A DNA stretch of 50,580 bases from Candidatus Kryptoniota bacterium (GTDB lineage: Bacteria > Bacteroidota > Ignavibacteria > Kryptoniales > JAKASW01): NCBI GenBank assembly GCA_024641705.1, contig JAHECO010000028.1, positions 1 to 50,580 of the forward strand, written 5' to 3'. The notes beneath the pieces were generated by a model. The model did not search any database. It saw only the letters and a list, made by a program, of their open reading frames with translations, and was not told where the DNA came from. Positions 47,304-50,580 of the stretch are shown here, one piece after another. How positions within the stretch are numbered: the stretch's first letter is position 1; each line of letters begins with the position of its first letter. Both the position numbers and the translations under genes were made by a program.

Positions 47304-47341
47304 GCCCTGCGGGGGGAAAACCTTCGCAGGGCGGTTTTTTT
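47304..47341 (+). terminator. Intrinsic terminator after serA
   Basis: Perfect 8-bp stem GCCCTGCG (47304-47311) with CGCAGGGC (47325-47332), then GG and a run of seven T. It lies 6 nt after the serA stop, a textbook rho-independent terminator, and closes the aminotransferase-serA unit. Confidence 0.9.
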
Positions 47342-47386
47342 CCAAGAAGGGGGCCCCGGGAACTCGGAAAACGTTTGATTTTCGAC

Positions 47387-47415
47387 TTGACAAAGCAAAT
47401 GAGGCAGGTTATATT
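47387..47415 (+). promoter_or_regulatory. Consensus-type promoter of the SusC-type gene
   Basis: TTGACA (47387-47392), exactly 17 nt, then TATATT (47410-47415). It is the same pair and spacing as the promoter of the bactofilin operon at 26838-26866. Transcription would start near 47422, leaving a leader of about 430 nt before the SusC-type start codon. Confidence 0.6.
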
Positions 47416-47482
47416 TCAGCGAAATTCATGTCAAAAGTCGTGCTAAGCAAGTACATCGTCATAGTGTAGTATTCTACAAATT

Positions 47483-47524
47483 CCGCAAAGGTGTATTCAC
47501 ATGGATACTCCTTTGCGGTTTTTT
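47483..47524 (+). terminator. Attenuator-like hairpin in the SusC-gene leader
   Basis: Perfect 9-bp arms CCGCAAAGG (47483-47491) and CCTTTGCGG (47510-47518), with GTAT/ATAC pairing continuing inside, followed directly by TTTTTT (47519-47524). It has the form of an intrinsic terminator but sits about 60 nt into the transcript, 330 nt ahead of the gene. Either it ends a short RNA or it is a conditional attenuator. Confidence 0.8.
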
Positions 47525-47583
47525 GTCGTGCTGAAGTTCGCGGTCGTGCGAAGTTCGAACGAGTACTAAAATTAGGAGGCATT

Positions 47584-47808
47584 TTGCGGGTTGCTAAGGG
47601 CATTAGCTCCCCCGCTCTCATTTCCGGCGTTGATCCAGAGGAAGACTCAGACGATAGGAATGGTGTATCGTCCTGTTATTCCTCCGCCTGCAGATATAAC
47701 GAGATAGGTTTGAAGAGATTCAGGGGACTGTTTCCGGGCCATATCAGGCATTCATTTTTTCTCTCTTTTCACCTACTAACCAATTCCATACTCAAGGAGG
47801 TATTATGA
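47584..47808 (+). CDS. Possible short leader ORF before the SusC-type gene
   Basis: 74 codons from TTG 47584, with TTAGGAGG about 5 nt upstream, ending in TGA whose first bases overlap the ATG at 47805. The amino-acid composition (GISSPALISG, SDDRNGVSSCYSSACRYNEIG) gives no family match by eye and may be non-coding. It is kept only because a good ribosome binding site and an ATGA overlap coincide. If translated it would couple leader translation to the next small ORF. Confidence 0.3.
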   Translation: MRVAKGISSPALISGVDPEEDSDDRNGVSSCYSSACRYNEIGLKRFRGLFPGHIRHSFFLSFHLLTNSILKEVL

Positions 47809-47855
47809 AGAGAAGGAGAACACAAATCACAAATCGCAAGGAGGCATTCAAATGA
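47805..47855 (+). CDS. 16-codon basic leader peptide overlapping the SusC-type start
   Basis: MKRRRTQITNRKEAFK, starting at ATG 47805 with AAGGAGG about 5 nt upstream and ending at TGA 47853-47855. That stop overlaps the ATG (47852-47854) of the SusC-type gene as ATGA. The ribosome binding site of the SusC-type gene, AAGGAGG, lies inside this ORF. It is strongly basic (seven Arg/Lys in 16). Its size and position suit a leader peptide that sets translational coupling; a chance ORF cannot be excluded. Confidence 0.45.
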   Translation: MKRRRTQITNRKEAFK

Positions 47856-50580
47856 AAAGACTACCGCTTGCTTCGTTGCTTGCGTTATGTTTCCTTTCTT
47901 TTGCCGCCGGTGCTGCGTTTGCACAGACAGGCATAATCAAGGGAAAGATTACTGACAAGCAGACCGGTGAAACACTGCCCGGTGCAACGATTGTAGTAGA
48001 AGGTACGGCTCACGGTGCGGCCGCCGACGTAAACGGCGACTATACCATCGAGAGCGTGCCTGCCGGAAGGTATCAGCTGGTTGCCAGATATATCGGTTAC
48101 CAGAGTGAGACGTACGTTGTCCAGGTTACGGACGGACAAACGACGACGGTAAATTTTGAACTTGCCCCGAGCGGTTACACGACGAACCCTGTCGTGGTTA
48201 CTGCGATAGGTACGCAGGAATCCCGCGCGCGCGTCGGCACGGCAGTGTCCTCGGTAGCGGGCCAGTCACTGGTACTATCAGGTTCGAACAACGTAATAAC
48301 CGACTTAGCCTCGAAGGCCCCCGGCGTGTACACGACGGAGACCAGCGGTGATCCGGGTGCTGCGACGAGAATAGTGCTCCGCGGTATCCGTTCGCTGCAG
48401 GGTGACAACCAGCCTCTTGTGGTCGTTGACGGCGAGCCGGTATTAAGCGGAACGATCGGCGATCTTAACGTTAATACGAGTAACGGAAGCGCGATCGGTT
48501 ACAACAATGTCGGCGGCGTGTCTTCAATGTCGGTATTGAACAGCATCAACCCGCAGGACATCGCATCGGTCGAAATCTACAAAGGACCGTCGGCGGCTGC
48601 TATCTGGGGATCACGGGGCGCGAACGGCGTTATCGTGATAACCACGAAGGGCGGAACGTTCACTCCCGGCAAGAAGGTCAACGTTTCGCTGCGCAGCAAC
48701 GTCCAGGTCGACAACCTGCTGAGAGAATTTCCGTTGCAGACCGAATATGGTCAGGGCGGAAACGGCGCGTACATCTGGAACACTTCGATGAGTTGGGGAG
48801 ACAAGATATCACTGCGCTCGGGCGCTGCAGACACCAAGTCATATAGCTACGCCTATGCACCGATCACGGCGAAAAATTCAAAGACGATCTACGATCATGC
48901 CGGTGAACTCTTCAGCCCGGCTATCTCTCAGGAATACGGAGCGACTATCACGGGTGGTGACCAGACCGGAAACTTCTACCTGGACCTCGATCGTCTCGGA
49001 CAGAACGGTATCGTGAAGGCGAACTCGGCATACAACAGGACCTCGATCAGGACATCGGTTACCCGGACATTCGCACAGGGTCTTACGGTCGACCTCAATG
49101 CTTCATATGTCAACGCCTCTTCGGACCGTATCCAGCAAGGGTCCAACATTTCGGGTCTTCTGCTCGGTGCGTACCGCACTTCGCCTGACTTCAACAACAT
49201 GCCGTATCTTGTGAACTTTGTTTCTCCGACCGGAGCGGTCACGCCTGGTGTTCAGAGGACTTATAGGAACGGTGCCGGAGATCCAACGAAAGGAATGGGG
49301 TATGATAACCCGTTCTTCTCTGTTTACATGAATCCGACGACAATATATGTCGATCATCTGACCGGCTCGGGCTCGATTTCCTACGATCCGTTAGAGTGGC
49401 TGAGCTTTACGTACAGGGCGGGAGTCGATTACCTCACAGACCGCGACAACACGGTCCTTGCGCCTTACGATGCGTCGCAGCCGAAGGGACAGATGGTTCG
49501 CAATGTGAACACCTCCTACATGGTGAACACGGATCTGATGGGCCGAGCGAGCCGTGCGTTCTCCGATGATTTCACTTCGACATTGATGGTAGGTTTCCAC
49601 ATCGATAATGCACAGTATGACAATACCGGTATCGTCGGTACCACGTTCATTATTCCTACGGCTCCTCCGACGTTGGGGAACGCGGGAACGTTTGCTCCCG
49701 GCGAGACCAAGATTATAACGAGGAACGCTGCATTATATGGTCAGTTGAATCTGAACTTCTACCAGCAGTTGTTCTTGACGTTTGCCGGACGAGACGAGAG
49801 CTCATCGACCTACGGGCCGGATGCAGCGTCTTTGTTCTTCTATCCTTCGGCCAGCGTGGCGTGGGAATTCACGCAGCTTCCCATGTTGAAGGACAACTCG
49901 ATACTTTCCTACGGTAAGTTGAGAGCGGCGTATGGCGAAGCAGCTGTCCAGCCGCCTGCGTATTCTACGAGCACGTATGTAATAGCAAATCCCATCATCG
50001 GGAACGGCTGGGGCCCCGGAATCGGCCTGCAATACTATAATGGCGGCGTCGTGATTTCTCAGACCCAGGGCAACACGAAGCTCGGTCCGGAAAAGACGAC
50101 GGAATCCGAATTCGGTCTCGACATGAGACTTCTTGACGACCGTGTCGCAATGAGTCTCACGGCTTACCACGATATTACGACCGACGCGATCCTGGCTCTC
50201 GACCAGGCCCCGTCGTCCGGGTTTGGCGCCATCAACGGAAATGCGGCCAAGATGAGCAACGTGGGATATGAAGCTCAGTTGACGGTAAACTGGCTGAGAT
50301 TCGGCTCCTTCTCGTGGCAGACGACCGGTAACTGGTCCACCAACCACAACGTGGTTTATGACCTGGCCGGTGTTTCCAATGTCTTCCTGTCGGGGTTCAC
50401 GGATCCGGCATCGGAAGCCATTCTTGGCCAGGAGGTCGGAGTGTTGTGGGGCACCCGCTGGGAGCGCGATGCTAATGGCAAGATCGCTCTCGATGCATAC
50501 GGATTCCCGGTCGGCGATGCCGCAACCCCGGGTCTCATCGGCAATCCGAATCCGAAGTACAGGGCGAGCGTAATCAACAC
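47852..50580 (+). CDS. SusC/RagA-type TonB-dependent outer-membrane receptor (partial, runs off the window)
   Basis: Start ATG 47852 with AAGGAGG about 9 nt upstream; no stop before the window ends, so at least 909 residues are present. After a signal peptide ending AGAAFAQ comes a carboxypeptidase-regulatory-like domain (IIKGKITDKQTGETLPGATIVVEG...DYTIESVPAGRYQLVARYIGY), then a plug domain with the SusC signature RIVLRGIRSLQGDNQPLVVVDGEPV and GPSAAAIWGSRGANGVIVITTKGG. Barrel strands follow to the edge. The family imports glycans or peptides together with a SusD lipoprotein; a susD gene would be expected just beyond 50580 if it is a SusCD pair. No TonB-box spacing can be judged. Confidence 0.96.
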   Translation, partial: MKRLPLASLLALCFLSFAAGAAFAQTGIIKGKITDKQTGETLPGATIVVEGTAHGAAADVNGDYTIESVPAGRYQLVARYIGYQSETYVVQVTDGQTTTVNFELAPSGYTTNPVVVTAIGTQESRARVGTAVSSVAGQSLVLSGSNNVITDLASKAPGVYTTETSGDPGAATRIVLRGIRSLQGDNQPLVVVDGEPVLSGTIGDLNVNTSNGSAIGYNNVGGVSSMSVLNSINPQDIASVEIYKGPSAAAIWGSRGANGVIVITTKGGTFTPGKKVNVSLRSNVQVDNLLREFPLQTEYGQGGNGAYIWNTSMSWGDKISLRSGAADTKSYSYAYAPITAKNSKTIYDHAGELFSPAISQEYGATITGGDQTGNFYLDLDRLGQNGIVKANSAYNRTSIRTSVTRTFAQGLTVDLNASYVNASSDRIQQGSNISGLLLGAYRTSPDFNNMPYLVNFVSPTGAVTPGVQRTYRNGAGDPTKGMGYDNPFFSVYMNPTTIYVDHLTGSGSISYDPLEWLSFTYRAGVDYLTDRDNTVLAPYDASQPKGQMVRNVNTSYMVNTDLMGRASRAFSDDFTSTLMVGFHIDNAQYDNTGIVGTTFIIPTAPPTLGNAGTFAPGETKIITRNAALYGQLNLNFYQQLFLTFAGRDESSSTYGPDAASLFFYPSASVAWEFTQLPMLKDNSILSYGKLRAAYGEAAVQPPAYSTSTYVIANPIIGNGWGPGIGLQYYNGGVVISQTQGNTKLGPEKTTESEFGLDMRLLDDRVAMSLTAYHDITTDAILALDQAPSSGFGAINGNAAKMSNVGYEAQLTVNWLRFGSFSWQTTGNWSTNHNVVYDLAGVSNVFLSGFTDPASEAILGQEVGVLWGTRWERDANGKIALDAYGFPVGDAATPGLIGNPNPKYRASVIN

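Follow-up and report, generated by a model that had tools for sequence, protein, structure and literature searches.

The window analysed here, 50,580 nucleotides of contig JAHECO010000028.1 (Candidatus Kryptoniota bacterium, assembly GCA_024641705.1), ends inside a gene for a SusC/RagA-type TonB-dependent receptor. The gene 5′ of the receptor leader encodes a D-3-phosphoglycerate dehydrogenase (2-hydroxyacid dehydrogenase, PGDH_inter and ACT domains) and has a terminator-like hairpin of its own at 47304-47332. Between this hairpin and the receptor, and including the latter, the following features were found:

47387 to 47415, plus strand: sigma-70-type promoter, TTGACA-17-TATATT; the same block is present in 21 leaders of the genus.
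47420 to 47443, plus strand: 5′ end of the transcript, conserved (CGAAaTT...), with the first of the GTCGTGC elements, R1 (47437-47443); GTCGTGC is present in 7 of 7 type A leaders (defined below).
47428 to 47469, plus strand: first short ORF, MSKVVLSKYIVIV and stop, 13 codons; the stop lies 13 nt 5′ of the hairpin.
47483 to 47524, plus strand: early intrinsic-terminator-like hairpin followed by T6; 7 of 20 leaders have one at this position, with compensatory changes between them.
47501 to 47569, plus strand: ORF of 22 codons starting in the hairpin loop; its frame is not conserved and its significance is doubtful.
47525 to 47549, plus strand: second and third GTCGTGC elements, R2 (47525-47531) and R3 (GGTCGTGC, 47542-47549).
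47574 to 47808, plus strand: AGGAGG (47574-47579) and 74-codon TTG ORF (47584-47808).
47794 to 47855, plus strand: AAGGAGG and 16-codon basic ORF, MKRRRTQITNRKEAFK and stop (47805-47855), with an ATGA overlap at each end.
47838 to 47855, plus strand: AAGGAGG (47838-47844) and ATGA coupling into SusC.
47852 to 50578, plus strand: SusC/RagA-type TonB-dependent receptor, above the TIGR04056 cut-off, with CarbopepD_reg_2 and Plug domains; it runs off the window.

In this genome 39 stretches matched TIGR04056, and two passed the cut-off, the receptor of the window and one on contig C46. The last 120 bases of the window (50461-50580) are identical to the start of C46 (L009:4-123), which then carries the end of a receptor, a SusD-like gene, a second leader and a second SusC. 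C46 is most likely the continuation of the window contig, short of proof because its first three bases mismatch, and the 120-base overlap fits an assembly break at a tandem receptor duplication. Counted from 47766, which takes in the 3′ ends of the leaders, the two receptors share 85% identity over 2,815 bases. Relatives of the receptor were found in MAGs titled “Bacteroidetes bacterium”.

The consensus promoter of the original prediction was recovered at 47387-47415, with 11 of 12 consensus bases and a 17-base spacer. It ranked best among 4 sites in 4.9 kb, 2.7 being expected at 9/12 matches or more, and its exact pattern occurs twice in the genome, once 5′ of each of the two SusC/RagA genes. 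From it we placed the transcript start at about 47421, an inferred position which serves as +1 below. No second promoter with at least 9/12 matches was found 3′ of the hairpin, where several sites reach 8/12, nor any TTTG/TAnnTTTG promoter site. On the minus strand, a scan for sigma-70-like sites over 47380-47860 returned none, and a DonS-type, cis-antisense control of susC was dropped for want of an opposite-strand promoter in that scan.

The terminator-like hairpin announced about 60 nt into the transcript was also found, at 47483-47518 (36 nt; 9 bp, a 1x1 mismatch, 6 bp and a 4-nt loop), beginning at +62 and followed by T6 at 47519-47524. Its folding energy is −21.8 kcal/mol, and the fold of 47424-47528 has a z of −6.2. 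Among 300 dinucleotide shuffles of the leader, none gave a hairpin and U-tract at −21.8 or below, and 5 gave one at −12.6 or below. A simple terminator scan did not list this hairpin, presumably owing to its rule of 3-8 nt loops; the stretch 47483-47524 nevertheless has the make-up of an intrinsic (Rho-independent) terminator, a stable hairpin directly followed by a U-tract.

A check of the leader in related genomes had been proposed, and it turned out in favour of conservation: the promoter, the transcript 5′ end, a position-fixed hairpin and the 3′ translation block are kept in the genus. A DNA search of 61 genomes gave matches in 13, 11 of them in the genus (the window's own included) and two, weak, outside it; the latter (G018 and G024) were read as chance, that of G024 lying in apparent coding sequence. 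Pattern searches added G005, and in all the promoter is common to 21 leaders in 12 of the 13 genomes of the genus, 20 of them usable (G005A is cut after 100 nt). Neither DNA nor pattern searches detected a leader in G007. The leaders fall into two types according to their 5′ end, type A (G000A, which is the leader of the window, G012C, G001A, G010A, G003A, G012A and G011A) opening with GTCGTGCTAAGCAAG or near variants, and type B with ATGCTGG..GAG. Among 294 genomes of the class, the type B 5′-end pattern, which would miss type A leaders, was confined to the genus, where 11 of the 13 genomes have it; with up to 3 mismatches allowed, it was present in 0 of the 281 genomes outside. A distant SusC relative (L079, 64% identity) had no match to the promoter pattern. 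It has a different leader (L079:3500-4001), with its own TTGACA-type promoter and AGGAGG-plus-start sequences 5′ of the receptor. A known RNA family is not apparent either: Rfam at gathering score gave only a tRNA elsewhere in the window, and the matches in the leader itself were chance-level and eukaryotic, so that no riboswitch or other RNA family was recognised.

A hairpin with a U-tract at +60 to +67 is present in 7 of the 20 usable leaders, from 6 genomes: six of the seven type A leaders, and G006. Two others, G011A and G008, have a nearby hairpin lacking the U-tract, and no early hairpin with a U-tract was found in the remaining 11 of 20. Since these include the tandem second SusC leader of the window's own genome, the early hairpin is not universal. 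Where it exists, the stems vary in sequence while pairing holds, with 7 of 12 pairs changed on both sides. For this comparison six distinct hairpins were aligned, G012A being omitted as a repeat of G003A, and the G006 row, which is out of register and weighs against the structure, was kept in. In this alignment 84.5% of cells were paired and the covariation score was 0.494, against 42 to 70% paired cells, 1 to 4 double-changed pairs and covariation of 0.07 to 0.20 in slid control alignments. This covariation is the strongest evidence suggesting that the hairpin is maintained by selection, and early termination at this site is likely.

The arms of these hairpins have a composition of their own. 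Shine-Dalgarno-like purines are held by the 5′ arms (window, G001A, G003A, G006, G010A and G012C), the 3′ arms being mostly ACTCC or ACTCT, and a start codon lies in the loop in the window, G006, G001A and G003A. The hairpin could sequester a start, besides terminating.

The original prediction had missed two layers of the leader, the first short ORF at 47428-47469 and the ORF starting in the hairpin loop. In the frame of R1, an ORF stops 13, 0, 5, 4, 4 and 4 nt 5′ of the hairpin in G000A, G012C, G001A, G010A, G003A and G011A, respectively. The distance from stop to hairpin is therefore 0 to 13 nt in all six of these type A sequences, with a chance of 0.17 to 0.27 each upon shuffling, a count which leaves out G012A (near-identical to G003A), includes the related G010A and G003A, and uses a distance window set after inspecting the data. 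In G006, an ORF from +7 terminates within the hairpin loop. The 13 nt of the window are marginal, being at or slightly past the presumed cover of a terminating ribosome. No clear Shine-Dalgarno sequence precedes the first ORF, and only 2 of the 7 type A leaders have an ATG there; the other five would need the GTG of R1. As for the loop ORF, its stop lies 4 nt 5′ of the AGGAGG of the TTG ORF.

Further downstream, the expected TTG ORF with a good ribosome binding site is in place (47584-47808, AGGAGG at 47574-47579), and the 16-codon basic ORF is joined to it and to the receptor gene by the two ATGA overlaps that had been described, at 47805-47808 and 47852-47855, respectively. The TTG ORF matched no Pfam family. 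Its open length is 74 codons in G000A and 66 in both G010A and G003A (chance 0.04 to 0.07 each); in G010 and G003 it ends earlier and does not overlap the 16-codon ORF. The last part of the leader is the more constant one: the 16-codon ORF, the AAGGAGG and the ATGA overlap into SusC were present in 10 of 10 complete SusC-type leaders, and in G006 the ORF retained its length and overlap with 12 of its 51 bases diverged. The arrangement, a stop/start overlap with the Shine-Dalgarno sequence inside the upstream ORF, is that of a translationally coupled pair. In some relatives (L060, L064, L065, L068 and L071), the leader is followed not by SusC but by a DUF4397-type gene and a different TonB receptor, and the AAGGAGG and the ATG of the 16-codon ORF start the DUF4397 gene; the domain was checked in G008, and the other such leaders were assigned by their similar starts.

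We do not claim functional peptides, because in both the first ORF and the TTG ORF substitutions are spread about evenly over codon positions and many gaps are not multiples of three. The exception is one TTG-ORF pair, free of gaps over 201 nt, in which codon position 2 changed less often than the other two (15/7/16). Purifying selection on the leader peptides thus appears weak or absent.

Taken together, these comparisons indicate that the leader is a real, genus-restricted and receptor-specific element, with an early, putatively selected terminator in a subset of its members and a conserved coupling of the 16-codon ORF to SusC. The reading that we tentatively favour, and which may well be correct, is a transcription attenuator, its terminator counteracted by a ribosome that occupies the first short ORF, and behind it a chain of translational coupling that leads to SusC. 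Transcription would begin at about 47421 from a strong promoter, and most transcripts would be expected to end at 47483-47524, as short RNAs some 100 nt long. A ribosome translating the first ORF (47428-47469; in relatives, the form that starts at the GTG of R1) would favour readthrough, as at the stop, adjoining the hairpin base, it would block pairing of the 5′ arm. Transcripts that pass would be translated via the TTG ORF and the 16-codon ORF, the ATGA overlaps handing terminating ribosomes to SusC. We infer the roles of the ribosome as antiterminator and of short-ORF translation from the arrangement; control by leader translation is the best-supported candidate mechanism. The attenuation or coupled control first suggested for this leader stands in part. 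Its conservation and the lack of a good promoter after the hairpin support attenuation plus coupled translation. On the other side, the hairpin with its U-tract is found in 7 of 20 leaders and is missing in the tandem copy, the TTG/16-codon overlap does not extend to G010 and G003, and regulation as such is putative, with little selection on the peptides and no antiterminator found. An attenuator of the trp type was rejected: no alternative antiterminator pairing was common to the relatives when the terminator was forbidden, and the peptides vary from relative to relative, unlike a conserved leader peptide rich in regulatory codons.

Alternatively, the hairpin may be a fixed, unregulated terminator that keeps basal expression of the SusCD operon low, yields an independent sRNA of about 100 nt derived from the 5′ UTR, or both, the ATGA chain only coupling translation. 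A promoter and a terminator about 100 nt apart behind a conserved transcript 5′ end are the anatomy of a small RNA, UTR-derived sRNA candidates are known in B. thetaiotaomicron, as far as the accessible text of that study goes (PMC7366714), and no conserved antiterminator was found. A fixed terminator alone, however, leaves unexplained why ORF stops cluster just 5′ of the hairpin and why GTCGTGC repeats flank it on both sides, and we consider it rather unlikely.

These repeats lead to another possibility. GTCGTGC occurs three times around the hairpin (47437-47443, 47525-47531 and 47542-47549), and while all 7 type A leaders have R1, 6 of the 7 have the R3 core, GTCGTGCG. The core is unchanged across an alignment of 5 type A sequences, from which G012A was omitted as nearly the same as G003A, and is degenerate in G011A. 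The repeats are possible candidates for a binding site, and a trans-acting factor, be it an RNA-binding protein, a specialised NusG paralogue or an sRNA, might act on R1-R3 in the nascent RNA or the non-template DNA, as do ops/RfaH, LoaP or ANTAR systems. In its favour, no part of the type A leaders is better conserved than R1 and the R3 core, each of the 6 genomes that have type A leaders, the window's included, carries a second NusG-family gene, and GCGGTCGTGC presumably resembles the E. coli ops element. Yet G007 has two NusG genes and no leader, the only two single-NusG genomes have type B leaders, and the association of the paralogue with type A is not significant (estimated p of about 0.27), its distribution being uninformative; there is no Rfam match, and the folds of R3 differ between relatives. 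A hairpin presenting R3 is predicted in several relatives, and no covariation is claimed for it because its pairings are offset by two bases between subsets; a long-range pairing of R1 with the sequence after R3, predicted in the window and G012C, was not seen in G001A, G003A and G010A and was dropped. Control by such a factor seems unlikely.

With a weight matrix built from the first 32 nt of 12 type B leaders, the start-like element was found again near +132 and +380 in G000B, G010B, G003B and G012B (scores 11 to 21). G001B has it near +133 (14.7), and G002 has a weaker match near +379 (7.1); best scores on shuffled sequences averaged −2 to −4, with a standard deviation of about 4. No repeat scored above shuffles with this matrix in G009A, G009B or the window. 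Start-like elements of the form ATGCTGGC..GAG..CAGAAGrAC, spaced by about 125 or 250 nt, which may be translation starts, RNA elements or DNA sites, are seen in the 600-nt leaders of the second SusC copy (L009:2301-2952, L062, L067 and L074). From the repeated elements of type B it may be proposed, as an improbable reading, that the receptor leaders of the genus are made of start-like modules repeated every 125 nt or so, whose short ORFs together relay ribosomes over 200-900 nt to the receptor, the first module having become a terminator-bearing attenuator in type A. The same ribosomes would then read both transcription readthrough and the relay. Finally, that the leader is mainly a translation device, a short-ORF chain re-initiating into SusC in which hairpins protect or space starts and termination is minor, would agree with the 16-codon ORF and both AAGGAGG sites being the most conserved downstream part, with type B leaders that have spaced start-like elements and no terminator, and with the proposal that leader ORFs near a start raise expression (PMC4833913, in its available portion), but we hold it for quite improbable, as without termination it is difficult to account for covarying hairpins that keep a fixed position and run straight into U-tracts.

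Dedicated sensors or small RNAs are the usual explanation for the regulation of SusC-type receptors. If the favoured reading is true, the genome's only SusC/RagA genes that pass the cut-off would have a further, cis-acting level of control in front of them, an attenuator linked to translation of the leader, and the leader looks like a built-in dimmer of receptor production. Sister leaders with and without the terminator, even adjacent in one genome, offer a natural comparison for the role of the early stop.

We met no SusC-leader attenuator in literature searches, which covered few subscription papers. The statement that no case with this layout had been described is nevertheless too strong, as terminators blocked by leader-ORF translation (PMC3894217) and Bacteroides 5′ UTRs that carry several leader sORFs in a row (PMC7366714) are on record in the accessible parts of these reports. 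In S. gallolyticus pil1, according to the available text, a leader-ORF stop 39 bp before a premature terminator results in termination, and one within or close to it in readthrough (PMC3894217). We prefer this model here, where the stop may be of the second kind: 0 to 13 nt separate it from the hairpin in the six type A sequences compared, and in the window the distance is a marginal 13 nt. As in pil1, where a surface-structure operon follows, a short leader ORF is succeeded by a premature intrinsic terminator; unlike what that text gives for pil1, no phase-variable repeat is seen here in the coding frame, the first ORF has a weak or no Shine-Dalgarno sequence, the coupled ORF chain continues past the terminator, and the system is known from its sequence (PMC3894217). 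In B. thetaiotaomicron, several putative sORFs in the 462-nt 5′ UTR of BT_4401, a hypothetical protein gene, were likened to attenuation leader peptides; in the accessible text of that study the gene is not presented as having a SusC leader, and no conserved early terminator is described, in contrast to the window (PMC7366714). FopS and RbpB of the same species likewise act after transcription, on the 5′ end of a susC mRNA, but there, as far as the available portion goes, a trans-acting sRNA targets the translation initiation region (PMC11697453). In re-initiation at leader genes, too, the stop of a short ORF coincides with the start of a structural gene or lies close to it; the work, in the part available, is a statistical proposal with a distance peak at 10-11 bp, whereas here the two reading frames share ATGA, and the upstream one has exactly 16 codons in all 10 SusC-type leaders (PMC4833913).
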